Below are positions 1 through 52,404 of a stretch of DNA of 64,000 bases, piece after piece. Source of the stretch: Terebella lapidaria (taxonomy: Eukaryota > Annelida > Polychaeta > Terebellida > Terebellidae); the NCBI GenBank assembly GCA_949152475.1, contig OX424567.1, forward strand, positions 18,067,402 through 18,131,401, read 5' to 3'. The notes beneath the pieces are model-generated. The model was not told the origin of the DNA. It saw nothing but the letters and a program-made list of their open reading frames with translations, and made no database searches. The translations under genes and the position numbers were made by a program. Every line of letters starts with the position of its first letter. Positions within the stretch are counted from its first letter, which is position 1.

Positions 1-1500
1 CTCTCATTATTGGCGAATTTTAAAAAATTCGCACAGCAGTCAAATTTGAACCGATTGTTCTGAAATTTGGTACACTGATATATGTTCATATCCTCCATCG
101 AAAAACAAACTTGTACGTTGATCGGTTGAACGTCAATGACGTCATGACGTAAAATGTCAATTTTTGAAATGGGGCCATATATCAGAAAGTATTTGTCGTA
201 GAGAGAAGCAGATTGCACCATTGAAAAGCTTGTTGAATTCTGGTTCAAGAGGGTACTGTCCGATACTTTTCCGCCCTGATAGATTTTCCGCTATGATGTC
301 ATAAACGTAAGGCCTGTCATGCCAGTATTTCGATTTTTCAGCAAAATTTCAAACATCCACAGTGCACTCAAATTTGAAGGTACTGGACTGTAATTATGAC
401 ACCGTATGTGGAACTTTATTACCCAGCCACATACCGAGTTTCAACACGCTACGTGCAACGTCAATGACGTCATGACGTAAAACGTCAATTTTAAAAATGG
501 AGCTATATATCAAGAGGTATTTGTCGTACAGAAAAGCGGATTGCACCGTTGGAAAGCTCGTTGAATTCTGGTTTAGGAGGGTACTGTCCGACACTTTTCC
601 GCCATGATAGATTTTCCGCTATGACGTCATAAACGTAAGGCCTGTCATACACGTTTTTCGGCTTTTCAGCAAACTTTCAAACACCGACAGTGCACTCAGT
701 TTTGAAGGAATTTGTCTGCAATTATGAGACCGTATGTGTAATGTTAATACCCAGCAAAACGCCGATTATCAACACGCTACGTGCAACGCCAATGACGTCA
801 TGACGTAAAACTTCAATTTTAAAAATGGACCTATATATCGAGAGGTATTTGTCGTACAGAAAAGCGGATTGCACCACTGGAAAGCTCGTTACATTCTGGT
901 TCAAGAGGGCTCTGTCCGATACTTTTCTGCCATGATAGATTTTCCGCTATGACGTCATAAACGTAAGGCCTGTCATACCAGTTTTTCGACTTTTCACCAA
1001 ACATTCAAACATCCACAGTGCACTCAAATTTGAAGGAATTGGATTGCAATTATGACATCATATGTGTAATATTAATACCCAGCAATACAGCGATTTTCAA
1101 CACTCTACGGGCAGTGTCAAATACGTCATGACGTCAAACGTCAGTTTTCGAAATATGGTTGTATCTCCTTTGGTGTTTCTCCTAGAACGGAACGAATTAC
1201 AGCATCGGAAACTTCGTTCAATTCTGCTTAAAACAAGTCATGTAGGTTTTTTCCGTCATGATATTGTTTTTTGGTATGACGTCATAAACGTAAGGTCCAT
1301 CATACTTTTCAGCAAACTTTCAAACATCCATATTGCACTAAAATTTGAAGAAATACGACTACAGTTTGAGATCATATGTGAAATATTAGTACCCATGCCA
1401 TTTACGAGTTTCAACATGGTAAGTACAGTGTAGAACGTCAATGACGCCATAACGTCAAACGTCAATATACGACTCTAAGTAAGTTTTTATCCTACAGTGA
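1..1500. repeat. About 328-bp tandem repeat array, copy A
   Basis: Roughly five monomers. The landmark AATGACGTCATGACG recurs near 135, 463, 791, 1119 (altered) and 1441, giving a period of about 328 bases. Each monomer also holds GGATTGCACCATTGGAAAGC, GTACTGTCCGATACTTTTC, a second TGACGTCATAAACGTAAGG block and TTTCAGCAAA. Divergence rises towards the right. The same monomer occurs in copy B (23449-24500) and, more decayed, near the right end of both giants. No convincing coding potential. Confidence 0.85.
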
Positions 1501-3040
1501 AATGGTATCCACCATTGGAAAACTCTTTTGTTTGTATGTTTGTTACCTGTCTAACGACCACAGTTTTCGCGCTAGCCCTAGGACGGGATAGCACGTTTTT
1601 GAAAAAAATCTTACCATTGATGACGTCATTAAAAATTCTTGAAAACTCGAAAAGTCCCTATCTTTAACATGGGGCGATGTATATTTCACATTGATATTTC
1701 GCTAAAAGTGGCGGATTATTATTGGGCATAATATTTCAAAATTTGATCCTGATGCGATCCGGATTACGGATTTGACAGCCATTTAATTTTAACATTGAAA
1801 ACTCCTTTCCACACATACAGTTTTCGTGCAAGCACCTCAAAAATTTGTTATTGGATAGGTATGTCCCCTCAGACTGCACCGCCTATTTTTGAGAGAAAGT
1901 TTCTTATCGATGACGTCACCAAAAATTCTTTAAAACTAAAAAAATCCCTATATCTAACATGGAGATATTTTTTTAAAAAATCATAACTCGTTAATTTTTT
2001 GATAAATTGTTCTGAAATGTGAGACAGACGTGTACAGTGACAACTCCTTCTTACCACAAAAGTTTGATCTCGATCTGATCCGGATTACGGATTTGACAAC
2101 CGTTTGAGCATTTACATTGAAAACTACGTTCACCAGCTACTTTTGATGTGTTTTGCATAGTTCACGTTGATTTTATTTTGCACAAATTGGCGAAAAGTTA
2201 CTGTGCACAAACTTACATCAAGTTGTCTGGATCTGATCCAGATTACGGATTGTGAATTGACCAGTTGTGAATATATCGAGTAGTAGCTCGTTTGAAAGGT
2301 CTGCGCGAGTGCTTGCCAAATCTGTCCTTATTTCCGAAATCTGAACTTAGGTAATGGCATTATGATGTCAAACCTTAATTCTATCATAGAATTTCACTTT
2401 TTACATGATGTGTATCAATCGGTCATGATCATTTTTGATCTGATGCTTTAGTATGTATATATGATGTAAAATGAAAAACATAAATAATGATTATGGCGTT
2501 AATAATTCTCCTAGAAACTTGAATCCAATTGCATAGTATAGATAAACTCTCTCTCTAAGCTTTATTATGCATTACCTTGGTCGTGAGCATTGACATCAAC
2601 CTTGACATAACCGCTGAGAGTCAAACTTGCATGAAAAAGGTATTTTTCTATTCGTTGCATGAATACAATGTGTCAATCTTGACCCATGCCCCATCTCAAT
2701 TTCTAGGGTGATCTGATCTCTCATTATGACCTAATTACCGTTTCGATGATGGAAAGAATCGCTTTTATCATGAGCGAAATTGAAGGTGTTTGAGTGTTTT
2801 TCGAATCTGTCATTATTTTCGAAATCCGACGTATCATTCATTATTATACATATGACAGGTCATACGACGTCATTATGATGTCAAACTTGATTGATATCAG
2901 CATTCCCAAACAAGGTCTGAACGTGATCTTAACTAGTACATCTCAGATCACACGTAACATAAGTTTCCTAGTCCAGAAAGGGTACACTGTCGCTAATTAC
3001 TACTACTACTCCAAGATAGATAGATGTGGGAGAGATAAGT
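1501..3040. other. Non-coding debris related to Helentron left ends
   Basis: No gene seen. Bases 1535-1680 resemble the start of copy B (about 23275-23450: TTTG-rich tract, CCACAGTTTTCNCGCTA, then ATTGATGACGTCA). Bases 1795-1960 are a second, more decayed version. Three GGATTACGGATT motifs occur near 1761, 2082 and 2231. Bases 2270-2390 and again about 2790-2895 resemble the ATCGAGTAGTAGCTCG...GACGTCA block of the HINE units at 57350-57450. It looks like layered remnants of related elements and has no clear counterpart at the same place in copy B. Confidence 0.55.
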
Positions 3041-3251
3041 GAGAGATAAATGGGAGATAGATAATTTATTTTGTACACACATGATATAAGTACATCTTAG
3101 ATCAAAATGATAAAATAATACATGGTAGTTTTTGTACAGGAGACCAAAGGAGACGACGCTAATCGAGCTGGCGACCTTACAGTTGCAGTTGATACATGTG
3201 TATCACACAGAAACCATTTGCCAAACCAATACGGCCTATGTATCGCAGGTT

Positions 3252-3333
3252 ACTCTTTGTTCTAAATTAAATGAAGATCAAAAATGTGCCAGACGGATTA
3301 AATATAGTATCCATCCAATTTAGAACAAAGAGT
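3252..3333. repeat. Foldback with 17-bp perfect arms
   Basis: ACTCTTTGTTCTAAATT at 3252-3268 is the exact reverse complement of 3317-3333. The copy B equivalent (25934-26034) keeps a longer but imperfect stem that begins ATCGCAGG and ends CCTGCGAT. It may be a small MITE or a structured element. Confidence 0.6.
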
Positions 3334-4295
3334 TATGTATTACATATATATTTCCGTGTAAAGTTCATGATGCAATCTTGGATGTAAATAATGAATGAAG
3401 CGTGACATTTAATCCCAATAACAACTTTATGTTATTGAATACAGAAGAACGACCAGTATAACATAAATGGATCAATTATATTTCTATATACATTGTATAC
3501 CACACCTGTATTTGTTGTATTTGCATATTCATCCATTGGAAAGAAATGAACGATTCACATGCTGCCATTTATTTCAACAGGCATTTGGCATTTCATTTTC
3601 TTAAAGAATGCTAAATTTAATACATGATGAATTCAACACACCATTAATACCCAAAACATGATATTATATTTGCCGTCAGCCATGAGTTTATGTGATAATG
3701 AGTTCAGATGAATACAGTAAACCCAGAAACATTCACCTACATAAAACCTTCGCGATTTTCACAATTGAATCTTATGGCCACGAATGTTGTAATTCACAAT
3801 CTTGAAACAGGTATTTTCATTGGTATTATATTGGTGTTATTGGTTTGCGTATCTGTTGCGGTGCCGATATAACAGGTACACGCCAAGGGTCTGCATAGCA
3901 GGCTCTGGTGATCGCCCACATCGGCTCTGAAGCGAAACATAAGGGGACAAAATTATATGGACATACATTGTTTCAAGAAACTTCATAATATTCATACCAA
4001 TATACAATTCCAGGATGATCCAAGATTTCATGTCTGTGATAACTTACAACTAGTGTCTTGGTGTACCAATAACTCTTGATGAACAATAAAAATTCAGGAC
4101 AAATTTGATTGCATGGCTCATATTTTAGACGTGGCTGACTCAGACCCACCTTGAATATCAAGTTAGCCAATTTTTCGTTGTCTACTGGAGGCAGCTGTAG
4201 ATCTGTTGAGAGGTGATGTGGAGTGTAATTCACCATTGTGATCACCACGAGTTTCGCTGCCTATTTTTCTGAAATTATATAGTAAAAAGTATTGT

Positions 4296-4373
4296 ATATT
4301 AAAATAAGTCCAAACATTTTTATTTACCACCAATATGGGTGGTAAATAAAAATGTTTGGACTTATTTTAATAT
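4296..4373. repeat. Perfect palindrome, 36-bp arms, 6-base loop (A only)
   Basis: Bases 4296-4331 and 4338-4373 are exact reverse complements, with loop AATATG. The arms contain AAGTCCAAACATTTTT. The corresponding place in copy B (about 27280-27360) has no palindrome, only a short TA tract. The perfect match implies a recent origin, for instance by replication template switching. Confidence 0.9.
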
Positions 4374-4727
4374 GCGAGTTGTGAGCATTAACTGTGACCC
4401 AGCAATTACAAACTGTGTTTGGACATAAAAGACATTAAAATTGACAAAAATGTAAGCTTCATTATTTTTTACAACGATTGGTGAACACGTATGAGCTTAT
4501 ATAAACATCTTTTGTTGGCACAGATCTTGGCGTACGGGTGGTTATTAATATCAGAGGAAATCAGTGAGCTGGTGAGAATCCATCAGCCTGATTTGGGAAC
4601 CACGTACCACGTAGAGGACACTCCATATACGTACTGAGCTAACCGGGCATCAGAGACATTGAAAAATTCACACCATGGATGATGTGCAATTTGTCATCAT
4701 CATCTGCCCTGTCAGATAATATTATAT

Positions 4728-4779
4728 CCGGGGGAGGGGGGAGTTGGGGTGGGGGAGTTGGGGGGGGGGGGGTGAGTAG
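4728..4779 (+). repeat. G-rich run, potential G-quadruplex (A)
   Basis: Several runs of four or more G separated by AGTT or T, ending in a run of about fourteen G. A similar G-run cluster is at the equivalent position in copy B (27761-27807), on the non-template side 3' of the gene. Confidence 0.7.
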
Positions 4780-4889
4780 GTTATGAAAAATGTCCCATTT
4801 CTCCTTACAACAGCTATAAAATGTGTTCTTCTCGATGATACAGTTTGGTTCAATTACCAGTCACACTACAAACACATGAATGAAAGCGT

Positions 4890-6020
4890 ACTCAAAACTA
4901 TCTAGCTCCCTACATATTAGACAGATAGGGAGATAGACGGGGAGATAGATAAATAGATAGATAGGGAGATGCAGTTTATTTCAAATGTGCAATGCAACAA
5001 ATAGTTGTATTATAATACGATTCATAATACATGTGTGCTGCACATTGATGGAAGCTGTCTGTAACACGCGAGTGCCCTGACTTCCACAGATACATATATA
5101 GCACATAATATATAGTATACAAGCTACAGGCAGTTGGAATTGAAAGCGTAAGAATGTCATTTTTTTGCCGAAACATTTTGAATATGCTGTTGAACTGATT
5201 GCTATGATATGGTTTGTATTACAGTATTTGTAATTATATGTAGGGCCTATTGATTCAGAAGACTGTTTCGCAGAAATAAGTTGGATACCACATATGTCAT
5301 GTGCACATGCGATTCCGTTGTAACGAATGAAATACCGACAACGCATCAATCCAAACCGCACCTTTGAGGTGATTCCTTGTCCATCGATACCCAAATTGTC
5401 TGCACAGATTTTTTTTTCGGCCGTTTATTCCCAGACCAGATATTTCGTGGATGTTTATGTTAGCCTTAGGCCTAATAGATTCTAGCTGTTACATCAGCCC
5501 GTGCAAATATTCACTGGCCTGGGCAGATCGACGGACCGACCACATTGCGACCCCCGCTGTATGACACAGACGTGTGACGCGTATGACGTGTGACACGAGA
5601 CAATTGTAAACTACAATTCACAGAATACTAGTAACTAGGCGAAGCCCGCACCATGCGCGCAACATTTGTCCATCGTGGAATCGCTCGAAGCCCGTCAATG
5701 CGGAGACCTGCCAAGCGGACAACTTACCACGATCATAGTAGTACCGGGCGCGAGCCCGGAGATCAAACAGGACCAATGAACTAAATGACGTATAACTTAT
5801 ACTAAGTCCCTTAACTGTACTAACATGCAGTGGACATGGCAAATACGGGATGATGTAGAACCAAGCTTTTGTGAGAATACTAATTGTAAAGTGATATTTG
5901 GATATTTCGTTGCAACTAGGTATTACGTGTATTGTGCTCCAGGATTGATACAATGTCAAGAGGTAGTTAAATAGCCTCCCACACAAAAGACCCTCTTTGT
6001 CCCACACTTCAAAGTAACAA
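4890..6020. other. About 1.1-kb segment present only in copy A
   Basis: The flanks (CACTACNAANNNATGAATGAAAGC on the left, TTTGAATGCGACCTAAATTATC on the right) are nearly adjacent in copy B at 27895-27980. The segment begins with a GATA-like microsatellite (4917-4970) and is locally GC-richer (5500-5780). On the minus strand a consensus splice donor GTAAGT follows an open stretch near 5730. No terminal inverted repeats or target duplication were found, so insertion in A and deletion in B cannot be told apart. Confidence 0.5.
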
Positions 6021-6381: not shown

Positions 6382-9300
6382 TCATTTCGCACACTTGATG
6401 GTGGACAATACTAAATCATGATCAGAATAATACACATCATGAATGTCAATTACTACTTTTGCACTGCCATCTTTTTCCAGGCCGTTGAAATACACGTGAT
6501 CTATAAGAGTTCCACTATCAGTTGTTGCATTCGAAACAAACTGGTAAAATCCAAAGTTTTCCATTAATCGTGTCAACTTTGTTTGTTTGCCTTCCACAAT
6601 ATTATCATTGAAATCACCGATCACCACTGTTGGTACACCGGGAGCGAGCAAACTCAACAGGGTTTCTAACTTCCTCAGGAATGTCACTATTGGCAAAGAG
6701 GGTGGTCTGTAAATGAGTACTATACAAAATGGAGATGGCACATTAAGAACAACTACCTTCGATTCCAAACCAAGAACAGACAACATGTCAAGCTCTTTGG
6801 GTTTGCGATCTGCAGAGGCGCATATCATGAGTCCATGATTCTGTCCATCATTTCTGCAGTCGTCACGAAATGCGACAAAATTATGCAATTCTAGAAAGTT
6901 GCTGATGTCTTGATTTTCATTCAAGTACGTTTCAGTGAAACACAACACTCCAGTACGGTGAATTATTTCTCTTTCGTATTGACTATTGAGGTCTTCAATT
7001 TTGTCCAGAAAGTAATGAACATTTAAGTGACCAACAGTGATATAATCTAGATTTTCTAGTTCCATCAAGTTCGGAAAAGCTGGCGGGCATAACATGTTTT
7101 CCCTCATGCTGTCCATTTCATGTTTGATTACTTTGTCTGCTTTAATTCCACGCCGATCAAAATCAAGAATATGTAGTCCCTTGAGTGATTTAACGCGACT
7201 AAATGCTACGTAAGCCTGACCTTTCCCAAATCTGGTTGCCCCCTTCATGCTAACTACAATCTCATTCATTGTTAAACCTTGACATTTGTGAATTGTAACT
7301 GCCCATGCCAAAGTTAGAGGAAATTGTCTTCGTGATACTTGTGAACCTTTCCTGCCAGCTTTCTCGAACTTCCCTTCTTGTCGTAATATCGGAATAGCAT
7401 CTGGATATTCTAGTTTCCATTGACTGTTACGATATGCTTTTTTACCCACACTTTCCTCGTCAAATTGTACTAGCACGACGGATACACGGTTGTTGGAGTT
7501 CTTTATTATACCTTTAACTGTTCCTAGAACGCCGTTCACTAAGCCATCTGATGTGTCTACGTTGTATGTCAGCATGACGCGCGCACCAACAGCCAGTACA
7601 AGAACAGTGTGCAGTCCAGCAGTTTCGGATCGTTTTTGTGTAGTCCCACTATTTCCAAGATCCAGTTGACCTGTTTTGTCTGTTTTGTCATCTGCTGCGA
7701 TAATTTTTACATGCGAAGATTCATCAGGAGCTAAGCACCTCAACATTTCTTCATTTCTCGTGTCAACGTCCTTGTTATAAGCATATACGTGAAGAACGTT
7801 TTGAGGATACTCTGGATCTTCCCTGCTGATTTCTCTTGATTTCAGAACTTCAACATCGTGGTCAGTACATTCACCAGTTCGAACACGTGACAACAGTTGT
7901 GCAAATTCCTCATCGCCTTTCTGACGCATTATTTCATCTAACTCGTGCAGCATAAAATTGTCTCTCCATAGTGATCCATTGAGGTTTGCTAATGGATCCC
8001 GAACATTGTCAAATATCCGTGACTGCAAAACGGGCGGAAGCTGATATAAATCTCCTACTGCCAGGATACAAACATTTCCAAACAGAACATCATCTGGTAC
8101 TCCCTTGATCTCATTCAGTCGTTTGTGTATAGTCAGAAGCATGTCTGAACCTACCATCGATATTTCATCAATTACCACTACACACAGATTCTCCATGTTT
8201 GATCGTAGGGTGTTCAGTTTTTCGAACGTGAGAGTATCACTGGCTTTGTCATACTTTGTAACCCTTATCAGTAATGCCGAATGAATTGTCATTCCCCTTA
8301 TACTAAAACTAGCAACACCAGTGGGGCCTAGGAGCAATACTGTGAGGTCTGTCGGTTTGATTGTATTTGACAATGCTAACAGTCGTCTGGTCTCAAAGTG
8401 TATCAGTTTTATCACGTGTGATTTTCCCACGCCACCTGGACCACTTAGAAACAGTCTATAAGGAACCACGGGCTGACCCTTTTTCATTGCAATAACTGTT
8501 TCTTTGCACCACTTGCGGTGATACCTTACAATCTGGCGCTGTTTCGTATTCAAGGCACGCATCATTTTCCTATACTCAGTCAATGACATAACACCTTTGT
8601 CAATTTCTGCTTGATAACGTAACCCTAAATCAGTAACAGGATTGCTATTCTGATTCTCAATCAGTGCTGCATTGGCATCCACATCTTCTTGTTCGATATC
8701 TCGTTCTGTTTCAGGTCCTTCAGCTTCTGCCTGTTCATTGTTATGCTCTGTTTCGGGTGCAACACTCGCCCACACGTGTTCTGGTGGTCCACACAAAGAA
8801 TTCAGACGTATCGCTTCATCAATCAACTCTGTGTTTTCAGTAAATCGCTGTTCGTTTTCACGTAGTTCATCAGCAATTGCCATGTAGTGATCTTGAAAAC
8901 TTGCATAACCACCAATCAAATCTGTGTTTTCGTGTCTCCAGTGTTTGTAGAGCATCAATTTGGCTCTGTAAAAATTCCCTGTGTCCAGTTCAATGTCAAA
9001 CTTTCGAAAACGAATAACAGCTTCGGTTTTGCGTTTATGCATTCTCCCCAGTCCATTCTTCAGAACAATATGTTTTGGAAGATCATCTCTCTGTGGCGAA
9101 GGGTCACCTTTATTTTCATCCATGTCCAACACCACTGGTACACTATCATCGACAGCTTCTTTGTCATTGTAACTAACTGTGTAGTTGGCAGCAAAGGCAG
9201 CAAGGCACATGTGTTCCAGTGAATTGGGTCGAGATGCATACCGGGTAATAACGTTTTTCTGAAATATGTCCTCATCGGTTTCATCTTTGTGTTGCAGTTC

Positions 9301-12300
9301 TTTCATTGGTTTCAGGACACCAATACGTTCTGACGGCGGATCAGTGTTAACAAACAAAACTTGTCTGCTCAGTTTTCGCATTGGAATAGACAATATTCTG
9401 TAGGCTGCTTCTTGAACGCTGACCTCACGGTGATTCAGAAACACAGATCCAACTCTTTTTAGCATGCTCTTTATGTCACCATCTTTGTACTCGCGACATG
9501 TCTGTCTCAATAGTTCTCCCATTCCACTCTCGTTTTTTGTCATATACGCTGCTACGTACATGATCACTGCGTAAGGGTCCAACAAATATTGAATGTCCAT
9601 GTTCGCCTGCCACGCTCTCAATATCGTGGGGTTGTAGGGATTTGTATTACATTCACAGGGATCTCTCTTCAGAACAACATTATTCCCTCGCTGGGAAACT
9701 TTAAGTGCTTTTTCGTAATCTTCTCCTTCGACATTCATATTGTCCAGCAAATCTCCAAGCTTCTGCGCAGAATTCTCGTGTATATCAAGTTCATTGCGAA
9801 CCAAATTTAGCACCTGTTGAGCTTGACTTTTGGTTTCTTTTGGGTCTTCGCCTGCCAGAGGTTCACTAGCTATTAGTGTGTCTTCACTTGGTGGCCGCGG
9901 GTAACCAAACCTACATGAACCTCTTTTGCGGCAGTACGAGGAATGGCTGTGTGTCTGTAGTTTTCGCACGAGTGATTCTAGCTCAGGATCTTCCTCTGGC
10001 AATTCACAAGTAACATGTTTATCAATGAATTCACACACCTCTTTCTCAGATTGTTCGCCCAGCTTTGGTGCATCCTTTACCCATAATATTGTGTGAGCAT
10101 GTGGAGACCCTCGAGCTTGAAACTCTATACGAATGACGTAGTCTACGACTTCTCCCAGTGGTTTAGCATTGGACATCAACACAGTTTTTAACAGAAGCTC
10201 AAGTCTGTAATGAAAATGACGCGCTGCAGTAACTGGATTATTCCGAAGCCATCCAACTCTTTCTTGAAAACTTAGGTTTTTTACATCTTCGTCGGTCAAA
10301 GTTGTACCATACTGTCTCGCAATTGTCTGTATCAGATCAGGCCACTGCATATCAGCTGCAGACACTGTGAAAAACCACGTTGGTATACCTAATTGTCTCA
10401 CCATTGCTAGAACATCATAATACAATGTCTGGAAATATGCTGGCGAACCTCTTATATTTGTTAAGATTTTATATGCATGGTCAGATTGTATGAGGGCAGT
10501 TAGTTTGTGTGCATTGTTTACCATTCCAGCATTTATGCACTTTCCTTGAAAATGTTTACCAGACACCCTTCTAAATACGAAATGATTTATGTCACTCTGC
10601 AACTGTTTACTTTCAACTGCATACTGTGCACTTAGCAGGTACTCAGGAGACTTAGCGAATCTACCCTCACAATCGAGCAGACGTTGGTTAAAATATCGTC
10701 GTGGGGTAATTTCAACCTCGCGTTCACTTGTTAAGGCAAATTTGCCATTCGGGTATTTGTCAGGAAAAGCAAGTTCTTCAAAATTAGGATCAGATAGGAG
10801 TGGTTGTGGTTTCTCTGTTTGTCCTGGGGCGACATTAACTACCAGATTCGACATATCTTGACTCTCTCTCATCAAACATGTTTCAAATGGGAGACCTCGA
10901 ATTTTGCTTGCTTCTTCTAAAGCGGTTTCATCCTCTTCAATTTCGTCATCAGAACATTCGTTTTTTGTTCTCTTATCACTGGAGTGTCCTTCTGCAATTA
11001 CATCAACTTGATCGGAAACATCAGGAGGTGCGTTTGGGGAAACCAGTGCCTCATCAGTATGGTCTTTGTTTGATTTTTCAACACTGCATGGTTCCAATAC
11101 AACGTAATGATTTTGATCTAGTAAACCGAGGTCAAACTCATATCGCGACTCTGATCTGGAGACTACAGTGAGACAAGTTCTGTTTGTGGTTTTGTGCACC
11201 TTCACAGTAAGCGCGAACATGTCAACGAGTGCTTGTAAAGCTATGTGCTCTCCCCACTGCTTACTATACTGGAGGCCATCGAGATATTCTATCCACTGAA
11301 TCTCCTGCCGGCTGTGGTCATCGGTTATTTCTGCAATTGCCCTATCTGTGTTCGTGGGTGGTTCCGTGTCTCCATTACCAACATGTGCACACACAAAATC
11401 TCGATATTGGTCGGGATTCTTGGACATGTACTTCGCTAACAACGCACGCAATTTAGTTGGGGATATTTTTGAAATACCCAGCCTCTCAAGTTGATAGCAT
11501 ACTGCATAAAACAGACAATCGCCATCGCCGGGGGTGTCTATGATGTTCATGTCCATGTTTCTAGCCAGTTCACTAAGTTGCCGCATGTCCGAATTGTCAG
11601 CAGAGGCGAAGACGCAATATGTCATGGCACTTTCCTTGGCGACTTCGACAGCAGTTTGGATATTTTTATCAGTCTTTGCACCACTACCATCAAACGCTGT
11701 AAGGCATGAAATATTCTGCTCAACGCCTTCAACAGATCGCTTTTGACTTATGCGTGTGCTTATACACCTTGAACTCTTGGATGTTTCTTCTTGTCCAATG
11801 ATTCGAGTTCGCTCCAAACCAAATGATTTCTTACATTTTTCATCAACTACATTATCAAAGTTGTTGCACCTTTTACTAATTTTGTCAACTGCAGTGACTG
11901 ACTTTTCTATTTCAAACGATTTCACAGTCTCTGTACTTATTTCCACTTGCATTTCGTTTTCAGCTTTCTCGGTTTCACAGGATGTCATTGCCGTCCACAT
12001 GTCATGATCATCTTCCGCTGAATCTTTCACCCAATCCTCATTGATCTCGATATCAGCATACAATGGATTGTTTGCTTTTAGGTATCTAAGTGCTGACAGT
12101 ACTTTATCAGGTCTAACGTAATCAAAAATATAGAAACTTTTATATCGAAGATTGCGTTTGAATTTCAGTGGTAACAGTTGTGTCTGTGAAGGCAATCGTG
12201 GCAACTGTTCACACACGAAATCGAGTTTTGCAGGAACGTTAACAGCCGGACCATGTATTCCAAGTTGCCTTCCACGTGGCAATGCCACCATTTTCAGAAA

Positions 12301-13287: not shown

Positions 13288-13407
13288 ATTCTACAAATGT
13301 CAAAACTGATATGATAGCGAAATACACTTATGGTTTTGTGAAATCAAAAGATTAGTCTATAATTATTATCGATAATTCAATGCAGACTAAGTAGATTTTA
13401 AACATAT

Positions 13408-18759: not shown

Positions 18760-19860
18760 TAGGTGTGCTGCATATAATTTTGTGGCCTTTCCAGCCCATA
18801 TATTCGGCTTTTTCGGAGACTCAAGGCACTTCATCTTTATAAATAATGTCAACGACCCCAGTTAACATGTATGGAAACAAAAATCTTAAAATTAATCTGA
18901 TAGTTTCCGAGAAAACAGCAAAAAATTGAATTTTGGGCTCTTTGGGCCGGCTTTTCAGGCCTATCGATCGACTCAAGGCACTCCATCTTTATAAACAATG
19001 ACAAGGACCCCAATTAGCATGTTTTGCAATGAAAATATCAAAACTGATCAGATAGTTTTTGAGAAAACGGATGAAAACTTAAATTTAGGCCTTTTTGGGC
19101 CTTTTGAGCCTAGATTTTTCGCCTTTCATCGATTCAAGGCACTCATCTTTATACACAATGACAAGGACCCAATAAGCATATAGAGAAACAAAAATCTCAA
19201 AACTGATCAGGTAGTTCTCAAGAGATCAGCCAATAACTGAATTTTGGGACTTTTTGGGCCATTTGAGCCTGAATTTTTGGGCCTATCGATGAACTCAAGG
19301 CACTTCATCATAATACACAATGTCGAGGACGCCAATTAGCATGCTTTGAAATGAAATTCTCAAAACTGATCATATAGTTCTTGAGACAATAGCCAAAAAC
19401 TGAAATTTACAGGTGCGGAACCAAATGTTGAACAGTACCAAATGTCAAACACAGTTGTTCACTTTATCAGTGTTCAAAGAGCATGTAATTAAATCAAACT
19501 TTCATGAGTAAGAGTTGCTTACATTTAACATTGGTACGCTCATGTGCAGTGAATTATAATTTTGTTCATGCGTTTTTGAGGATTGATAAATTTAAAAACT
19601 GTGTTCGACATTTGGTACTGTTCAATATTTGGTCCCCCACCTGTAGGCCTTTTAAGCCTAGATTTTGGGCCTTTCGAGCAATTCAACGCAGTCCTTCTTT
19701 ATACACAATGTCAAGGACCCCAATTAGCATGTTTTGAAACAAAAATCTCAAAACTGATCAGACAGTTTTTGAGAAAATGGCCGTCAAATTTTAGAATTGA
19801 GCATTTTTCGACAAAAAAAAAAGTGAAAATCAAAATTAAACCAAGGGCTTAGAAAGGTTA
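18760..19860. repeat. About 155-bp tandem repeat array, copy A
   Basis: The block CAAGGCACTNCATCTTTATA...CAATGNCAAGGACCCCAATTAGCATG, followed by TCAAAACTGATCAGATAGTT and TTTTTGGGCC, recurs near 18823, 18973, 19135, 19298 and 19680, a period of about 150-163 bases. The last interval is stretched by a MITE insertion (19410-19643). The copy B counterpart is 41290-42360. Confidence 0.8.
19410..19643. mobile_element. MITE family alpha (234 bp) with TA duplication
   Basis: The ends CAGGTGCGGAACCAAATG and its reverse-complement partner form imperfect inverted repeats of about 45 bases containing GTACCAAATGTC. TA flanks both sides (19408-19409 and 19644-19645), suggesting a Tc1/mariner-type origin. 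A syntenic copy lies in B (41927-42157), and a third, inverted copy lies at 49588-49823 only in B. No coding capacity. Confidence 0.8.
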
Positions 19861-23110: not shown

Positions 23111-23175
23111 TGGGGGTGTCCACTCTTTCCGTCATGGCAGATTACTCACACACAGATGACACACATGCGTTAAAA

Positions 23176-23217
23176 AGATTTCGACAAGTTTGGCCTTCAG
23201 GCCAATGGTATCTCGTT
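23176..23217. other. Right terminus of giant Helentron A
   Basis: Subterminal repeat ATTTCGACAAGT (one mismatch to the inverse of the left-end ACTTGGCGAAAT), then the short palindrome TTGGCC-TTCA-GGCCAA, then TCTCGTT at the boundary. The next base starts copy B. The same string ends copy B at 52404, where the following sequence is different, which fixes the boundary. Confidence 0.85.
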
Positions 23218-39787: not shown

Positions 39788-40425
39788 CCGTATTTATTCA
39801 ATTAGTTCGAACAGCTAAAAATAATTAAATTTTGAAATGTTCGAATTATTAGATTCACGATAAAATCGTCCGTCAAAACGAAAAAAAATCCCAAACCCAG
39901 ATTGATCATGCCATGGCAGATAGGCCTACGCAGGTTGACAGATGCCGCTCGTGCTGGTTGGTTAGGGCCTGTACGATTGATAGGTTAACTGCAGACAACT
40001 AGCATTTTAAAAAAAAACTTGAATAACTAGCTGCTAATTCGCCGGGTAACTGTAATTTATAATCTCGCATTGATGCTAGATTCTAGTCATATTGCAAGTG
40101 AATTCGAGTCACTCGACTCGGAAAATCTTCAATGGCCCGCAAACCGCCTGGCACTATGAGGTCCGCGCTTTTTGTCATATACCCTAGCCTAATCGCGATC
40201 ACTGCCACCTGGCGAATATATCGCTGATTACTCATTTCGTAGTGCTGCCACCTGGCGAGTTGTATGTTTGGGCAGCTGAGAAGTTGATTTCGTTCGTTGT
40301 TTCAATCGAAATTTCGATCGTAAATTTGACTGTTCGAACTAAACGAGTCAATTTGAAAATTATTTTCTTGAATAATTTTTGGTGTTCGAATTATTAGAGT
40401 GTTCGAACTAATTGAATAAATACGG
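39788..40425. mobile_element. MITE family gamma (638 bp) with TA duplication
   Basis: Ends CCGTATTTATTCAATTAG and CTAATTGAATAAATACGG, an inverted repeat continuing through TTCGAAC; flanking TA at 39786-39787 and 40426-40427. Copy A has the empty site GTAAATATGATAAAATTAT (about 18091), which confirms the insertion and the TA duplication. Consistent with a non-autonomous Tc1/mariner or pogo-type element. No coding. Confidence 0.9.
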
Positions 40426-41289: not shown

Positions 41290-42360
41290 ATGTCACCATT
41301 AGGTGTGCTGCATATAATTTTGTGACTTTCCAGCCCATATATTCGGCTTTTTCGGAGACTCAAGGCACTTCATCTTTATAAATAATGTCAACGACCCCAA
41401 TTAACATGTATTGAAACAAAAATCTTAAAATTAATCTTAAAATTTGAATTTTGGGCCTCTTTGGGCCGGCTTTTCAGGCCTATCGATTGACTCAAGGCAC
41501 TCCATCTTTATAAGCAATGACAAGGACCCCAATTAGCATGTTTTGCAATGAACATCTCAAAACTGATCAGATAGTTTTTGAGAAAACAGATGAAAACTTA
41601 AATTTAGGCCTTTTTGGGCCTTTTGAGCCTAGATTTTTCGCCTTTCATCGATTCAAGGCACTCATCTTCATACACAATGTCAAGGACCCAATAAGCATAT
41701 AGAGAAACAAAAATTTCAAAACTGATCAGGTATTCTCAAGAGATCAGACAATAACTTAATTTTGGGCCTTTTTGGGCCATTTGAGCCTGAATTTTGGGCC
41801 TATCGATGAACTCAAGGCACTCCATCATAATACACAATGTCAAGGACGCCAATTAGCATGCTTTGAAATGAAATTCTCAAAACTGATCATATAGTTTTTG
41901 AGACAATAGCCAAAAACTGAAATTTACAGGTGCGGAACCAAATGTTGAACAGTACCAAATGTCGAACACAGTTGTTCACTTTATCAGTGTTCAAAGAGCA
42001 TGTAATTAAATCAAACTTTCATGAGTAAGAGTTGCTTACATTTAACATTGGTACGCTCATGTGCAGTGAATTATAATTTTGTTCATGCGTTTTTGAGCAT
42101 TGATAAATTTAAAAATGTTCGACATTTGGTACTGTTCGATATTTGGTCCCCCAACTATAGGCCTTTTAAGCCTAGATTTTGGGCCTTTCGAGCAATTCAA
42201 CGCAGTCCTTCTTTATACACAATGTCAAGGACCCCCCTTAGCATGTTTTGAAACAAAAATCTCAAAACTGATCAGACATTTTTTGAGAAAATGGCCGTCA
42301 AAGTCCAGAATTGAGCATTTTTGGACAAAAAAAAAATGTGAAAATCAAAATTAAACCAAG
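41290..42360. repeat. About 155-bp tandem repeat array, copy B
   Basis: Counterpart of 18760-19860, with the same CAAGGCACT...CAAGGACCCC landmarks. It contains the syntenic MITE alpha copy (41927-42157). Confidence 0.8.
41927..42157. mobile_element. MITE family alpha, syntenic copy in B
   Basis: Starts CAGGTGCGGAACCAAATG after TA and ends near ATTTGGTCCCCCAACTA. The right terminus is more decayed than in copy A. Same position as 19410-19643, so inserted before A and B diverged. Confidence 0.75.
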
Positions 42361-42807: not shown

Positions 42808-43460
42808 CGACGGGTGAAAGGCAGAACGTCGTAAGTGACATTTCAGTAATTTTACAGGAGGACATGTTTTTCATCCCACACGTACCTGCATTTATCCAGC
42901 GATTGGAGTTTTTGATATATCATGTAAACTATCTTCCTTGTTCTTTCCGAATACAAATATATTGCAAATGTGTTTCTTTAAAGTTTTTATGGAACAAAAT
43001 GTTACTTACGACATTCTGCCTGCAACTTCTGAAGGCGACGGAAAATATTTTCAGCCTGGCAGAAGGTCGTAAGTACATATTTAAAACCCATTTTTATTCA
43101 TATTTATTGTTTGTATGCTCGCGGTAAACTAATACGACCTTCCTTGCATCACAGAGCAACACAATCTTCACCTTTAACTACGATTCAACAAGTTTGTTTG
43201 TTACGACGTTCTGTCGGACGCAAAATATCTGACAAGGGTGCCGATCGAACAGGCAGAATGTCGTATAAGTTTTTCAGGCAGTAGTTATTCGACTGCTATG
43301 GCAACTATAGGTGTATTTCTTAGCCTGTGTCTCTCTGGCTGGATGAACAATATTTGGATCGAGAAGTGTTCGTTTCAGACACACTCCCAGGATTTGGCAG
43401 CGATATATCGTATCTGACATATCATCTGAACACTGGCCCGCCAGAATGTCGTATCTGCCT
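42808..43460. promoter_or_regulatory. Left subterminal cluster of GGCAGAANGTCGTA motifs
   Basis: Copies of the terminal motif near 42819, 43007 (inverted), 43060, 43128 (inverted, degenerate), 43200 (inverted), 43252 and 43442. Such iterated subterminal motifs are usually transposase binding sites (inference). Confidence 0.6.
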
Positions 43461-46075
43461 ACATGTAGGTTAGCATGCTCCCGATAATTATCAATGAAAT
43501 TCGTTCGTACTATGTTCATTCCCACGGTCTCATTGCCCGGCTCTCACTGTCATACATGTTGGTACTGGGAATATAATAGTGATAGGAGTTGGCGGCCAAC
43601 TACAAGAAAGAAATATTATTTGTTAATAACCCTTGAGTTCAACCTTATTCCACACAAATATCGCTTCCTGGGCATTTCAGGCTCAGTACTGTGAAATTAT
43701 GGAACAACGTCATCAATGTTGGGCGAAATGTCCTGATTATACCCCTGTCACACTGGAATGGCGGTGCCACTGCAGTACCACAACCGTTTTCTGCTAAAAC
43801 CGTCATCACCGTTGTGATATATCCAGTAGTGTTTTCGTATTTTGCCCTACCCATCAAACATGTATTTTTTTTCGAGATGGTACTGAGGAACCAGAAAGGT
43901 GTCATTGAGGCCATACCCTTACGGCTTTGTTGGCGGTTTCACGGCAGTAGTACTACGGTGCTGGACTCAGCATTGAACATGTTGAAGGGCCACTGGCATG
44001 CTACTGCGAGGATGGCAGTGCTACTGAAGAGACACAGGGCCAGCAAATGTAAAAGTGATGTGGTTTTCGGTCAAATTCATTACCATTTTTTTGCCAAAGA
44101 CGTTGCGTCACCCAAAAATTATGTCGAAACATGCTACAAAGGGGAAACCAGCAATCAGCGCCCTCCTATACGCCCCTTCACCAACGGAAGAGGATTCTTC
44201 ACATGATAATGATGCTGTTGCTTGTTCATATTCTGCCTGCTGTTGCTGCAAATTTGCATGCGATCAAATTTCTGTAATTATCTGCCATTCTCAATATTAG
44301 TACTCGATTTGAATTGCTTGAAAACTTTTGAAACAATGAAATCGACCGAACTTTCATACTACAAAATATCGCAGTAACATGGTGCAAGCACCTATTTAAT
44401 TGAACCTCTGTGCAACCAAATGTGTTTTTATATCCGGTGACATGTGATATTTGAAACAATGTTCAAAATATTAACTGCACAACAACATCTGCACAAGCGA
44501 GTCCAGGTTTTTGTAGAGAAGAGGGCTGGGGGCAAACACCAAAGAGAGTACTAGTATATATGGGCTCAGAATAGGACGGTGATTAGGTGCCCCAGAGTGG
44601 GTCCTGTGCATGGTTGATTCATTCAATTCAGATAATTGTATTTACAATATGAATATACAGATAATTCTCCTATTTTACCATGGTGAAACCCTGTTTTTGC
44701 TTGAGGCTCTCTTTCCCTCACACCACCTCGCTATATCCCTATTTGACAACCTGATATTACAATCCTATTCCCGCTAGAAGGGTTATTTACGAAAAGGTTA
44801 TCCGTTCCCATCGACCGTCCTAAACCCTTTAATGACAATGATTGGAACGCTGTACCCGCCTGAGATTTGAAGGACTCCACCATCATCGCCCTCCTGAACC
44901 ACTGTATAGACAAGCCTATCCAAGCCTGATATATTATTCGGGAACAAACTCTTCCCACCCCTCCTAAACTCTTATTTTAGAACGATTAGAAGCATATCCC
45001 CCTAGAAGAGATTTTATTCATCAAAGGTCTTTTCTGCTCACGCTGCCCCTCCTAAACCCCTATTTCACAACAATTAGAACGATGGGAACGCCTAAGGTTT
45101 TCATTGACAATTGAAATCCTTTCTCCACTTAAGAGTTTATTGACAAGGGACTGTCCCTGCAATCGCCCATCTTGAACCCATATTCGAAAACGATTAGAAC
45201 CACCTCATAGTTTACTGATGGAAGGACTCTTCCTTTCCCATCCTCCCTCCTAATCCCCTATTTTACAATGATTGTAACCTTGTCCCCGACTGAGACTTTA
45301 CCTAAAAGGTGTCTTCCTTTTCCGCTTCCCCTCTTATCCCTTATACGGCAACGATTGGCTTTCATCTACCCCTACTTGGCAATAGAAAGAACCATATCTT
45401 GTCAGAGTAACTATTTACGAAAGGATACTTCCCATACCACCGCCCCTCTTGATTCCTTTATTTTTGGCAACGATATAATAACCGTTATAATGCCGTTTCC
45501 TTACCACACCACCCTACCCATATCTGATATAGTGTTGAGTATCGGATCCCGTCTGCAATTCCATCTGCAATCAAATTATTATTATAATAATTATAATAAT
45601 AATTAATGTCTATTATTATTATAATCTTCTAAAAAACATCCTAATTGATTATAATGCAATATGCACCCAACAATTCGGAGACGCCGTTACTCACCTGTAC
45701 AAGGACGATGAGTGCAGAGCTGACCTGCGTAGAGCGGAAATGTTTCAGAACAAGAAAGTTTATGTGAACTGGCCCTGCATATAACGAGCCAAGATGTTAT
45801 TCGGAGATACTGATTCAAGATATGGCAATAGATGAATGCGGTCTCCCTTGTCATGATAAATAAGTTAATTGTGTCATAATAGCTAGATCAATATATTCCC
45901 GGGGAAAATTGTCTATACCAGCACACAACCGGTTGCTTGCCCCCAATGAATGCTTACTATGCTTTCAGAATACCTATCACAACGCAATTTCTCACATAAA
46001 TCATTGTCAAACAGATTATCGAAGATTTTAATTGAACTATTATTATTATGTATCCTTTTTTCTATTAAACTTGTT
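43461..46075. other. Interior of the 5.6-kb transposon, no gene recognised
   Basis: The longest open frame (43691-44206, 171 codons) has no recognisable domain and biased composition. Bases 44690-45560 are degenerate repeats of about 100-120 bases with CCTCCTAAACCCCTATTT and AACGATTAGAA landmarks. Bases 45576-45627 are an ATT/AAT microsatellite. Confidence 0.5.
44690..45560. repeat. Degenerate tandem repeats of about 100-120 bp
   Basis: The landmark (CC)TNCTAAACCCCTATTT...CAATTAGAAC recurs near 44815, 44960, 45050, 45175 and 45250, each followed by a pyrimidine-rich block and TTTACNNAA. Poorly conserved. Confidence 0.5.
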
Positions 46076-47807
46076 CACAGGGGACTATCCGTTCTGTACA
46101 AAATGGCTTACGGCGATTTGGTTCCGACCTACGTGTATCTGCCTACAGTCAAAACAAAAGCGACCTATGCGATGTTGCTTCGATTACTACCTCAATAATT
46201 AGCCATTTATCACCAAACATTAACATATTATGTCTCTCAGGCTTGTTTTTGATATATTCAACTACTTTCATCGCAACACGCACAATTTTGCTAGAAAACT
46301 ACAAGTCTTTATGCCGCATCACAAGTTCCGTTTTACCGTCATAGTAATTCCAATTTACATTAGTTTACATGTTTTGATGTTCAGATTTACCGACACTTAT
46401 ATGTCTAGATATAAAGTAAGAATATCATTTGTTGAAAACAAATGCGAACGCTTACGTGGCAACTTTCTTACCTTCATACTTTATGTCCGCATATGAAATG
46501 TGTATGCAAATTAAGTCAATTTCAACACACAACCTCGTATGATTTTTGCCCGTAATTTTGTTTTGGACCGTCGGATCAATTTGAATCTGCTTGAATAAAA
46601 ATTTTTCATCAAATTTCAGATCTTCAAAACTGAAAAAGTTGACAATCTACCTCAGTGGTAAATTTCAGCCCCAAATAGGATCACGTGAATTCAAGCACAT
46701 TGAGGATTCTTCTAATAGTTGTGACCATGAACAATATACCAATTGTGATGTTTGTTTTAGTTTGAAGACATACAAGTGTATTTTGATCAAATAATCTCTT
46801 TCCAGAGCAATGTGTGATTCAAACATCGAATAACTTGCCAAGTTGTGATCAAACTCGCAAATATATTGTTTGAGGTGAAATTTAAGAAGTAGGTTGCTGA
46901 CCTTACCAGTTTTTAAGATATAATTTTATGCCAAATGGAAAGATAAAAAATTCAAACGGATCCGACGAACCAAAATAAATTTATGGTAAAAAATTATTCC
47001 AGGTTTTGTGTTGAACTCGACTTTACATGTTTTATGTCATCACATGATGTGAAAACGTGGAATCTTATCAAAAGTGGAATGGTTGCGAGGTCACATCGGA
47101 CTACTGGGGCGTGTCACCTGCATTCAACCCACATTCAGCCCAAAACACACACTTCTAGCTGTATGTGGCAGCAATGTAAGCAGTGGGTGAGTGATCAAGA
47201 AAACAAAAAATCAAACGAAAGAGCGTAAACGAAAAAAAAAGAAATGAATTCAATGTATATGATTAAATTATTTGGGAAATTCGCGAGTCCACTATTACCC
47301 GGTTCGACAGAAGGATGGGGTTAATGAACCATGGCAGAAAATAAATGAATAAAATTTATAAAATATATCAGAATAGAGCAGAACCGGTCATATTCCCTTC
47401 TATCTAAAGCTCCTTCAGTCATGAAACGTCGTTAGATCAGATGGTAATTCAATATTTCCAACTTTAATATGCCAAAGTGAATTTAAAACATTTCATAATG
47501 TTGTCTATTCTAATGTTTTTATACGTCTTGTAAATCGGAACATGAAACCACAGAAATCGGAACTGTGCTCGTTTCGGTGAATCGGAACATATCCAATATA
47601 CCCCATACTACACCGAAACTATCATTTTGCCCACGCAAATAACACTTTATATACTCCTAGGCATTACAATAATAGGCATACGGGTCTCACATACAATCTG
47701 TTAAACTTTTGCCCACAATTTCTCTCACATGGCGAAACAAACAAGCACACGTGAAACGGAACCAAACCGCCGTAAACCAATTTATAGGGAACGGATAGTC
47801 CCCCGTG
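46076..47807. mobile_element. Nested 1.7-kb inverted-repeat element
   Basis: The ends CACAGGGGACTATCCGTTC (46076) and GAACGGATAGTCCCCCGTG (to 47807) are inverted. Similarity continues inwards for about 65 bases through TTACGGCG and TTTGGTTCCG. Flanks TTGTT and CTGTT could be a 5-bp duplication with one mismatch. It sits inside the 5.6-kb transposon. No transposase recognised; small open frames at 46230-46496 and 46983-47228 have no recognisable domain. Confidence 0.7.
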
Positions 47808-48124
47808 CTGTTGCTAACAGTTGAGCGTGAAGAGGTTGACTTCAGTTAGCTATGCAAGTAACCAACTCCAATCTACCATTTTCAAGCCCACCCCCTACCC
47901 CCCCCCCCCCGCACCCGCTAGGTCATGCTAAAGGGACCTGTCATATCCCAACACAATTTGAGGGAGGGACGTGGCGGTTTTGAGGATTACACGAGTTTTG
48001 GGATTAAATCAACAGGAATGTTATGTGCCTGCGTGTATCCAAAGAGAAAAAAAACGCACCCACACCTTTATGTGTACAGAGACATATCTGTTCTTTTGTC
48101 AAAATCCCAGCGCGATGAGAAACA

Positions 48125-48452
48125 TTTCAGTTACGATGTTCTGCCGGTATGGGATGTGCAGATACGATGTTCTACCGGTCTGGGATGTGCAGATACGATG
48201 TTCTGCTGGCATACACTGTTCACTTACGACATTCTGCCGGGAATCTGTGTTATATACGACATTCTGCCTGGTTGCATATACAGGAGTTGTCACTTACGGT
48301 GTATTTTAACATTTGCATATTTCGTTGTTCATAAGCTGACCTGAAGCACAAAGCGAAGCGTACATATCCGCGTGGTTACACAGAATGAAATGAAGCCCTA
48401 AAACCATTTTGTCCAAAAGTGTCACTTACGACGTTCTGCCTTTCACCCGTCG
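48125..48452. promoter_or_regulatory. Right subterminal cluster of the transposon motif
   Basis: Inverted copies of the terminal motif (TACGANNTTCTGCCGG type) near 48130, 48165, 48192, 48227, 48257 and 48424; the three around 48130-48200 form a tandem of about 30-bp units with GGGATGTGCAGATACGATG. Confidence 0.6.
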
Positions 48453-48456
48453 ATAT

Positions 48457-49282
48457 ATCGTTTCCGATACGTTCAATATTGATTCCTAAGCTGTACAGTC
48501 GAGCGAGATATTAACTATTTTGTTCTCTGAGCTTGAAAATGAGGTCTAAGGTCAAATTCAAGGTCACCAGAATATTCAGCATATATTATTTCCTATATGG
48601 TCACTATGGATTCCTAGGCCAAAAAGTCGCTAATAAACGAGATATAAACCATTTTGTTCTCTGACCTTGAAAATGAGGTCTAAGGTCAAATTCAAGGACA
48701 CCAGAATATTCAGCATATATCATTTCCCATATGTTCACTATTGATTCCTAAGCTGTACAGTCGATAATAAGCGAGATATTAACTATTTTGTTCTCCGAGC
48801 TTGAAAATGAGGTCTAAGGTCCAATTCAAGGTCACCAGAATATTCAGCATATATCATTTCCTATATGTTCACTATGGATTCCTGGGCCGAAAAGTGCCTA
48901 ATAAGCGAGATATTAACCATTTTGTTCTCTGATCTTGAAAATGAAGTCCAAGGTCAATTTCAAGGACACCAGAATATTCAGCATATATCATGTCCTATAT
49001 GTTCACTATGGATTCCTAGGCCAAAAAAACGATAATAAGCGAGGTATTAGTCATTTTGTCCTGTCACCTTGAAAATTAGGTCAAAGGTCAAATTCAAGGT
49101 CTCGACAATATTCAGAATACATCATTTCCTATATGTTCACAATTGATTCCTAAGCTGTAAAGTCGATATTAAGCGATGTATTAGCCATTTTGTCCTGTGA
49201 CCTTGAAAATTAGGTCAAAGGTTAAATTTAAGGTCGTGAGAATATTCGGCATATATCATTTCCTATATGTCCACAATTATTG
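48457..49282. repeat. About 130-bp satellite array, right part (B only)
   Basis: Six or more monomers, with GATTCCTA landmarks near 48481, 48609, 48744, 48877, 49007 and 49145. Each contains AGGTCAAAGGTCAAATTCAA or a close variant. Absent from copy A. Confidence 0.85.
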
Positions 49283-51745: not shown

Positions 51746-52232
51746 ATTTTTTTTTTTTTTTTTTTTTTTAAATATTTTTGTTGGGCGAACCCATTTTTGT
51801 GTATATGCTGTGCGACTTAATTATGGAGTGCGATATATATATACAACTGTTGAGTTCCATTCCGGTTTGGGACTGCATGACAGGGCTATGACACACACTT
51901 CCTATCACACCGTTCATGGACCTGGCATGGGGGTGTCCCTACCAGACCATGAAGCTATCCTGGTGTTAATCAGGCCTGGTGAACATAGCACCTGCGGACC
52001 CTATGGTGTAATCATCCCCATTCCTGAGTCATACCACCAGGAAGTCCCCCAGTATCGTACTCGTATGTGAGTAACTCACGGCTGAGTGGTCAGCCTTAAT
52101 TCCCATTGAGCCCACAGCACACCCATCCTGGGTGGGGATCGGCCATGATAAATCCCTCGGTCACCGATGGGGTTCGAACCCACGACCTCCCGGCTTTGAA
52201 TCCTGCAGCTTAACCACTGCGCTACAGGGGCC
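51746..52232 (-). mobile_element. tRNA-derived SINE, syntenic copy in B (487 bp)
   Basis: Same insertion as 22579-23052, with the 9-bp duplication GTACAGAGA at 51737-51745 and 52233-52241. B-box GGTTCGAACCC on the minus strand; a longer plus-strand T-run (poly-A tail) at 51748-51769. Lies within the diverged 328-bp monomer 51470-52290. Confidence 0.9.
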
Positions 52233-52362
52233 GTACAGAGAATTGTGTTTACAACTACCTGCTCTAATTTTGCATAAAAACCGAGTTGCATGGGGGTGTC
52301 TTCCCGTCACTCTTCCCGTCATGGTAGATTACTCACACACAGATGACGCACATGCGTTAAAA

Positions 52363-52404
52363 AGATTTCGACAAGTTTGGCCTTCAGGCCAATGGTATCT
52401 CGTT
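52363..52404. other. Right terminus of giant Helentron B
   Basis: ATTTCGACAAGT, TTGGCC-TTCA-GGCCAA, TCTCGTT, matching 23176-23217; followed directly by the TGTTTGTTTG microsatellite of H1. Confidence 0.85.

Follow-up and report, generated by a model that had tools for sequence, protein, structure and literature searches.

Helentrons and their non-autonomous relatives (HINEs) are the closest described counterparts of the two elements, here termed A and B, that lie head to tail in the window, a 64,000-nt stretch of the genome of the annelid Terebella lapidaria (contig OX424567.1, positions 18,067,402 to 18,131,401). Helentrons and HINEs (Thomas et al. 2014, PMC4067079) have in common with A and B a Rep-PIF1 helicase-endonuclease in a single protein, an OTU domain and the motif RGSPHxH, which that paper gives as a rule for the Helentron Rep; subterminal inverted repeats, a 3' palindrome and a TT target without target duplication; as well as a microsatellite, tandem repeats, non-autonomous partners and neighbours that are sometimes adjacent. 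Unlike the Helentrons described there, A and B are 23 kb long with extended non-coding DNA, and most inspected copies reside within the leader of another Helentron. Their gene lies on the minus strand, for which the same source names one family, Helentron-Da-40; an opposite gene orientation is also reported for a few Helitron2 families (Bao and Jurka 2013, PMC3627910). Helitron2 further resembles A and B in having a hairpin at each end and inverted repeats that are placed asymmetrically, terminal on the left and subterminal on the right; it is described, however, without an endonuclease domain (as stated in PMC4067079), while A and B both possess one.

Nested and tandem arrangements of such elements are on record. 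In Fusarium, a FoHeli element is likewise inserted 2 bp from the 5' end of a relative, and repeated 5' termini are ascribed to self-insertion (PMC5148889); unlike here, the cases are few and the elements ~6-11 kb in size, and the portion of that report drawn on contains neither a 4-nt spacer series nor a claim of leaders as the main target. Head-to-tail or adjacent Helitrons are also known from bat, silkworm, maize and plant centromeres, and maize Helitrons prefer the vicinity of other Helitrons (cited across PMC4067079, PMC5876387, PMC12477314 and PMC7492417); those tandem arrays are explained by termination having been missed, and their inner copies frequently lack the 3' part, whereas the elements that meet within a leader here are complete and belong to different subfamilies. 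The oyster Cg_HINE (PMC7492417) resembles the present elements in its left module with a hairpin and a mostly 4-nt microsatellite and in satellite-like central repeats, but it is non-autonomous, and its authors could not link it to the 10 autonomous elements found there. Tandem and nested Helitrons are already known; new here is the near-exclusive self-targeting.

Element A covers positions 1 to 23217 of the window (plus strand), its ends being set by recurrence in the genome and by identity to two other copies. Because its left end is located at C14:18067172, 230 bp before the window, it has a full length of 23,447 bp. Its RepHel gene (6382-13290, minus strand) is uninterrupted and encodes 2302 aa from stop to stop, with the first Met at residue 4, comprising OTU, Helitron_like_N, PIF1 helicase and endonuclease domains; that of B (28056-34988, minus strand) is likewise uninterrupted, with 2310 aa from stop to stop and a RepHel-OTU-endonuclease composition. 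This agrees with an earlier note on this DNA, made from the letters alone, which had described two large Helentrons joined head to tail, each with one intact gene of about 2300 codons. Rep (HUH) is fused to a PIF1 helicase (PF14214, 4.4e-33 in A and 1.3e-33 in B; PF05970, 8.2e-20 and 6e-20), the helicase part of B matches Helraiser (7lcc) at 4.5e-21, and a C-terminal endonuclease follows (PF03372, 3.3e-9 in A and 2.7e-7 in B). In both proteins, Rep motif 2 is IEFQARGSPHAH, its G and P being separated by an S. As for captured host genes in the non-coding parts, 10 ORFs of 114-188 aa (out of 56 ORFs of at least 90 aa) yielded no Pfam match above the cut-off (best 0.013); the window yielded neither an Rfam match at gathering score nor a tRNA, and no relative was confirmed in a search of viral contigs.

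At its right side, A carries the subterminal inverted repeat AAGATTTCGACAAGT (23175-23189, plus strand), which by eye is complementary at 14/15 positions to the left-end sequence ACTTGGCGAAATCTT, followed by the hairpin TTGGCC-TTCA-GGCCAA (23190-23205, plus strand). The right end of A, ...TTTGGCCTTCAGGCCAATGGTATCTCGTT with its last base at 23217, abuts ACTTGGCGAAATCTTCGATTTTCGCCAAGT, which starts at 23218; in the junction (23211-23218, plus strand) TCTCGTT of A is directly succeeded by the first base of B, the TT leaving the exact boundary base ambiguous by 1-2 positions. A genome search with the element ends, as had been suggested, found them to recur: the 29-base right-end string is present 30 times in the host genome versus 0 for the reversed pattern, and matches to the left end alone begin elsewhere at the identical base. 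The junction and the end of B at 52404, which shares the right-end string of A, thus stand as first described.

Element B (23218-52404, plus strand) starts with a left terminal hairpin (23218-23247, plus strand), continues with a TGTT leader tract (23266-23297, plus strand)—the type of site that houses most inspected copies of these elements—and closes with a right subterminal repeat, hairpin and TCTCGTT end (52362-52404, plus strand). Its 29,187 bp are inflated by two later inserts, a MITE-like one of 638 bp (39788-40425) that has terminal inverted repeats together with a duplicated TA, and one of 5,645 bp (42808-48452) whose terminal inverted repeats span ~33 bp and which has a duplication of 2 bp. 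Because neither occurs in the B-type copy at C14:32.6 Mb or in the one on C130, the core of B amounts to ~22.9 kb, and a 29-kb Helentron by descent, as the size first given (about 29.2 kb) would imply, is rejected.

A and B are mostly 90-95% identical, with a drop to 73-77% within 3015-4892 and some stretches that do not align, and on sequence grounds they are classed as different subfamilies. Each has much closer copies elsewhere. A matches copies at C14:31.80-31.82 Mb and C6:36.41-36.43 Mb with 99.74% and 99.67% identity from end to end, both with other flanks and without B attached; for B, the copy at C14:32.61-32.64 Mb shows 99.66, 98.4 and 99.7% identity over three blocks and that on C130 shows 98.8-99.7% by block, and neither has A attached. 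These values bear on the proposal that copying ran past the right end of A, or that a dimeric circle integrated, for which the exact end-to-end junction, the termination-signal bypass invoked for tandem Helitrons of bat and silkworm (PMC4067079) and the exact head-to-tail joints in Helitron circles (PMC5876387) can be adduced. Adjacent units of a concatemer would be copies of one template, yet A and B are far less alike (mostly 90-95%) than each is to its relatives elsewhere (98.4-99.7%). The genome does contain homogeneous arrays, but they look different: the part of C130 examined holds 9.0 copies (TRF) of a 1,445-bp unit, the first eight 99.9-100% and the ninth 92% identical, and beside the A-type copy at C14:31.8 Mb there are 1,271-bp units, of which the three compared are 99.8-100% identical; a CTCGT[T/G] end, sought in the first unit of each array, was absent from both.

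The spacing between neighbouring elements likewise speaks against such a failure to stop. Among end-to-start junctions, defined as a right end and a left hairpin with 0-30 nt between them, 47 are listed for this right end alone, so that the head-to-tail arrangement, ranked in the earlier note as the most unusual large-scale structure here, is not unique. The spacers measure 0 nt (14 junctions), 4 nt (20), 8 nt (5), 12 nt (6), 16 nt (1) and 17 nt (1); a spacer is, thus, present in 33/47 junctions, and every length but the 17-nt one is divisible by 4, which is the period in nt of the leader TGTT repeat (46/47; P ~3e-26, assuming equal likelihood of lengths 0-30 and independent places, which not all of them are). 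Some places are duplicated or share identical flanks (L038/L039, L044/L045, L071/L072), so the counts are not fully independent. Because A and B differ in subfamily, and because two inspected copies of each, far closer to it than its neighbour is, stand without that neighbour, read-through fails as an account of the pair, and we regard it as very unlikely. Of the two origins first proposed, tandem insertion is the one borne out, by the separate closer copies and by spacers that fit insertion into a TGTT tract.

The flanks identify the target. When the left flank of A is joined to the right flank of B, the sequence matches 56480-56609 (plus strand), an uninterrupted leader of a small non-autonomous Helentron labelled HINE-X here, over 130 gapless positions at 99.2% identity, which places A and B within a HINE-X leader and provides a gapless empty site. 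The earlier note had recognised neither this third element as the host of the pair nor that most copies inspected in the genome are similarly placed. The remainder of the host, i.e., the rest of the leader and the body up to its right end, follows B at 52405-53973 (plus strand), resulting in the layout hairpin(s)-A-B-remainder of HINE-X. The remainder of a second HINE-X, up to its right end, occupies 53974-56431 (plus strand) and is apparently the outer host of the first, an order that is inferred; when the hairpins and right ends that follow B are paired like brackets, the pairing does not close fully. Very probably, A and B arrived by separate insertions into the TGTT leader of HINE-X, facing the same way and using the same TT step or neighbouring ones. 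A 9-versus-15 split of private substitutions (P = 0.04) weakly suggests that A arrived after B.

A single uninterrupted target for the pair would also result if A and B had been neighbours elsewhere and had moved jointly from the left end of A to the right end of B, as proposed for neighbouring Helitrons (PMC4067079); on C17, moreover, 8 nt separate an A-type copy from a following left end that is 88% identical to that of B over 100 bases. However, no second zero-spacer joint of an A-type right end with a B-type left end was recognised among 49 matches (40 of 1282 candidates scored), and we consider joint movement improbable. A candidate second dimer at C130:5618-5868 proved to join a B-type right end to a shorter element. 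Recombination in the TGTT tracts of two Helentron leaders, one holding A and the other B, would equally yield 4n-nt spacers and a kept orientation, and the hairpin spacings that recur on C1 suggest, by eye, that this genome has segmental duplications; but the crossover would have to fall precisely at the final TT next to B, between partners whose HINE-X flanks are nearly identical, and recombination leaves the other A- and B-type copies within leaders unexplained, making it highly unlikely. Least credible of all is an assembly artefact that wrongly joined A and B from alternative alleles of a single leader, given that the right end of A and the left end of B have no shared sequence to join on and that the same type of joint is listed 47 times.

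Independent insertion into leaders is also what the wider genome points to, in regions sampled via A/B-type ends. The right flank was seen for 27 of the 30 exact right ends; 12 lie beside a hairpin and 13 within a leader (25/27 abutting another Helentron-like leader or hairpin), while two (L068, L074) are in other sequence, so targeting is not absolute. In six regions examined, 25/26 right ends from several families are likewise beside a hairpin or in a leader (23 by script and 2 by eye, after 3/29 rows were dropped as internal non-ends), and all 56/56 left hairpins are preceded by TT and share a common strand. Among the first 100 of 4,019 hairpin tails (all on C1), the strand is the same in 75/75 pairs up to 50 kb apart versus 13/24 farther pairs. 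An exact 20-base TGTT pattern gave 4,171 matches, overlaps counted, the reversed-pattern control being uninformative for such a repeat; among 100 matches listed, many are, by eye, in hairpin clusters and some are without an exact hairpin tail nearby.

The most likely basis of this pattern is serial insertion into Helentron leaders, at their TT steps and with a shared orientation. The RepHel-endonuclease protein presumably catalyses the joining, which would put a rolling-circle copy between one T and the next of a TT. The TGTT tract that lies immediately inward of left hairpins would offer a run of TT steps on one strand, and newcomers landing in it in the same orientation would leave 4n-nt spacers, with two elements touching where n = 0; fixed orientation and spacer lengths would both follow because the tract supplies a one-strand series of such steps. 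The target may be the leader rather than just any TGTT tract. More tentatively, and at somewhat less than even likelihood, the transposase may home, recognising any Helentron-like left hairpin and integrating into the adjacent TGTT tract, which would build one-way nested stacks of many families and largely spare the rest of the genome. Under homing, the stacked families would range from HINEs of one or two kilobases up to 23-kb autonomous elements.

Insertion into leaders explains head-to-tail Helentrons without a failure of rolling-circle copying and yields a testable integration rule—TT steps of a relative's leader, a 4-nt ruler and a fixed strand. If targeting is active rather than passive, this would be a rolling-circle element of eukaryotes that makes its own safe harbour, and it would help account for clusters in which Helentron-derived repeats all point one way. 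Given their open frames and near-identical copies, A and B may have been active recently, and young, uninterrupted 23-kb copies are good material for studies of Helentron transposition.

Two large Helentrons, A and B, are joined head to tail: window positions 23211-23218 read TCTCGTT/A, the right end of A being followed by the left hairpin of B without a gap, as the earlier note had described. B (23218-52404) terminates in a right end identical to that of A, and comparison with the host genome (761.6 Mb in 438 contigs) places the window at C14:18067402-18131401 and the left end of A at C14:18067172, 230 bp upstream of the window, so that A is 23,447 bp long. Relative to its copy at 32.6 Mb on C14, B contains two extra inserts of 638 bp and 5,645 bp, both ending in terminal inverted repeats and accompanied by a 2-bp duplication; without them, its core comes to about 22.9 kb. 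Among Helentrons, the label "giant" is fair for A and B alike, whereas the 29.2 kb previously given for B does not stand, since it includes the two inserts. The longer insert (42808-48452) has terminal inverted repeats of about 33 bp, and Pfam yielded no match for the ORFs of 132, 139 and 188 aa in or overlapping it. Published cases include a proto-Helentron of about 14 kb (PMC4067079) and elements with termini 9-11 kb apart (PMC5148889); maize Helitrons reach 39 kb, captured genes included (PMC6431247). Wording such as "giant Helentron" was absent among the literature matches listed, many journals lying outside the search; given this limited coverage, no size record is claimed for A or B.

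The 70 bases left of A, joined to the 60 bases right of B, match window 56480-56609 over all 130 positions, without gaps and at 99.2% identity. This stretch is an uninterrupted leader, made up of hairpin and TGTT tract, that belongs to HINE-X, a small non-autonomous Helentron; therefore, A and B jointly interrupt one HINE-X leader, without target duplication. Of the two origins proposed earlier, tandem insertion is the one supported. The rest of this HINE-X extends from the right end of B to its own right end at 53973, and that of an apparent second, outer HINE-X to 56431. These remainders are read as nesting, though the order of leader remainders farther downstream closes imperfectly. The bodies at 56560-57832 and 57833-59099 are duplicates (99.8% identical), and more left hairpins of the same kind are found upstream of A (positions 6992-7171 of region L009).

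The other proposed origin, a failure to stop at an element end during rolling-circle copying, is rejected. Identity between A and B is 91% across the gene, 95% in the part downstream, 93% close to the right end and 73-77% at 3015-4892, and elsewhere in the genome there are closer relatives of A without B and of B without A; because of this divergence and these partner-free relatives, the pair cannot be a single-template concatemer. Rolling-circle or unequal-exchange amplification could here take the form of homogeneous tandem arrays, unlike the A/B pair. Such arrays of near-identical, Helentron-derived units comprise 1,445-bp units at C130:36931-50000 (L053, L054; 9.0 TRF copies within 50 kb) and 1,271-bp units at C14:31824551-31830300 (L057; at least 4.5 TRF copies within the stretch compared); in neither array does the first unit contain a right end. 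The 1,271-bp array adjoins the A-type copy at 31.8 Mb on C14, and one of the array's units has this copy inserted in its leader.

Genome-wide, 168 exact GGCCAATGGTATCTCGTT right ends are present, 47 of them with ACTTG, the usual hairpin start, at most 30 nt away. The spacer at these junctions measures 0, 4, 8, 12 or 16 nt in 46/47 cases and 17 nt in one, and its sequence is TGTT-like in nearly all. The exact 29-base right end of the A/B type occurs 30 times; among the 27 copies with a known right flank, 12 adjoin a hairpin, 13 lie in a Helentron-like leader remainder (by eye) and two adjoin other sequence. The resulting 25/27 in or by leaders is far above chance, because hairpin tails (4,019 exact occurrences versus 5 for the reversed pattern), assuming a length of 70 bp, cover about 0.04% of the genome, a share that variants would raise. 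Similarly, in six regions (~270 kb; a sample overlapping the former), the right ends, which come from several families, adjoin a hairpin or leader in 25 of 26 cases (29 rows minus three internal non-ends; 23 by script, two by eye), and all 56 left hairpins are preceded by TT, on one strand. Of the 4,019 tails, the first 100 all lie on C1; among these, neighbours share the strand in 75/75 cases within 50 kb and in 13/24 farther apart; as several places duplicate one another, 8/8 multi-member clusters is the safer strand count.

It is proposed that the RepHel-endonuclease would join an arriving copy at a TT step, between its two Ts. Because the TGTT leader has many such steps on one strand, the orientation of the insert would be fixed, and successive arrivals would leave remainders of 4n nt between elements, direct contact of A and B representing n = 0. 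The protein might home actively on its own hairpin or be attracted passively by the tract alone; both fit the data, since many long TGTT tracts sit in Helentron clusters.

Helitrons lying side by side or in tandem, self-insertion and multiple 5' termini have precedents in PMC4067079, PMC5148889, PMC12477314 (on maize) and PMC5876387. That Helentrons insert almost only into Helentron leaders was not reported in the titles and abstract beginnings among the matches listed for microsatellite or nested Helentrons, Helitron insertion preference, tandem arrays or termination signal, and self-insertion.

As members of the Helentron group, A and B are ordinary; what is new is a variation in where they land. 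As noted earlier, each carries one intact gene, here 2302 (A) and 2310 (B) uninterrupted minus-strand codons. Both proteins contain OTU, Helitron_like_N, PIF1 helicase and C-terminal endonuclease domains and the Rep motif IEFQARGSPHAH; the S in this motif is given as a Helentron diagnostic in PMC4067079. The left end is self-folding, and its first 15 bases are complementary (14/15) to a repeat on the inner side of the right hairpin, in keeping with the asymmetric inverted-repeat plan described by Bao and Jurka (PMC3627910); the gene is reversed relative to the ends, a minority arrangement according to PMC4067079 and PMC3627910. The protein N-terminus consists of 23-aa repeats encoded by 69-bp units (12839-13188 in A, 5.1 TRF copies; 34414-34886 in B, 6.9 copies). 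They resemble the STPR DNA-binding repeats of silkworm FMBP-1, though charged repeats can match by composition; those of B match Pfam PF21107 (8.9e-7) and PDB 5d23 (1.8e-4), whereas the A protein gave no PF21107 match even at E 1. Among the papers listed by a literature search for STPR together with Helitron, none had both.

Two copies, at C14:31.80-31.82 Mb and C6:36.41-36.43 Mb, match A over its full length at 99.74% and 99.67% identity; A has nine private substitutions in 23,425 aligned sites (substitutions only). Three blocks of the B core match C14:32.61-32.64 Mb at 99.66, 98.4 and 99.7% identity, and a copy on C130 matches it, block by block, at 98.8-99.7%. Judged from sequence, A and B appear to be young mobile units. 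There is a weak indication that B may be the older: its private substitutions number 15 in 17,417 sites (P = 0.04 against A), and it alone has later inserts. The protein search gave at least 25 matches; at least nine, A and B included, cover residues 1-2302 with no stop, both lower bounds from scoring 20 of 2342 candidates. Long relatives at 57-58% protein identity, two of three without a stop, lie at C7:2305824-2312627, C7:2390159-2396950 and C1:73761248-73768135; by these, the host carries at least one additional Helentron family.

Two pairs of A-type left ends have identical 70-base left flanks. For L044/L045 (C1:33.52 and 33.45 Mb), around which the hairpin-tail spacing repeats too (by eye), this points to segmental duplication; for L038/L039 (C14:31.94 and 31.80 Mb), insertion into like array units is an equally probable explanation. 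Just inside the right ends, 22900-23060 and 52080-52245 have, by eye, a reversed tRNA-derived (SINE-like) look, tRNA and Rfam searches giving no match for either. Satellite-like tandem repeats inside the elements comprise 328-bp units near the left ends (129-1148, 23576-24481), 158/159-bp units (18958-19409, 41478-41926) and 134-bp units (48502-49274).
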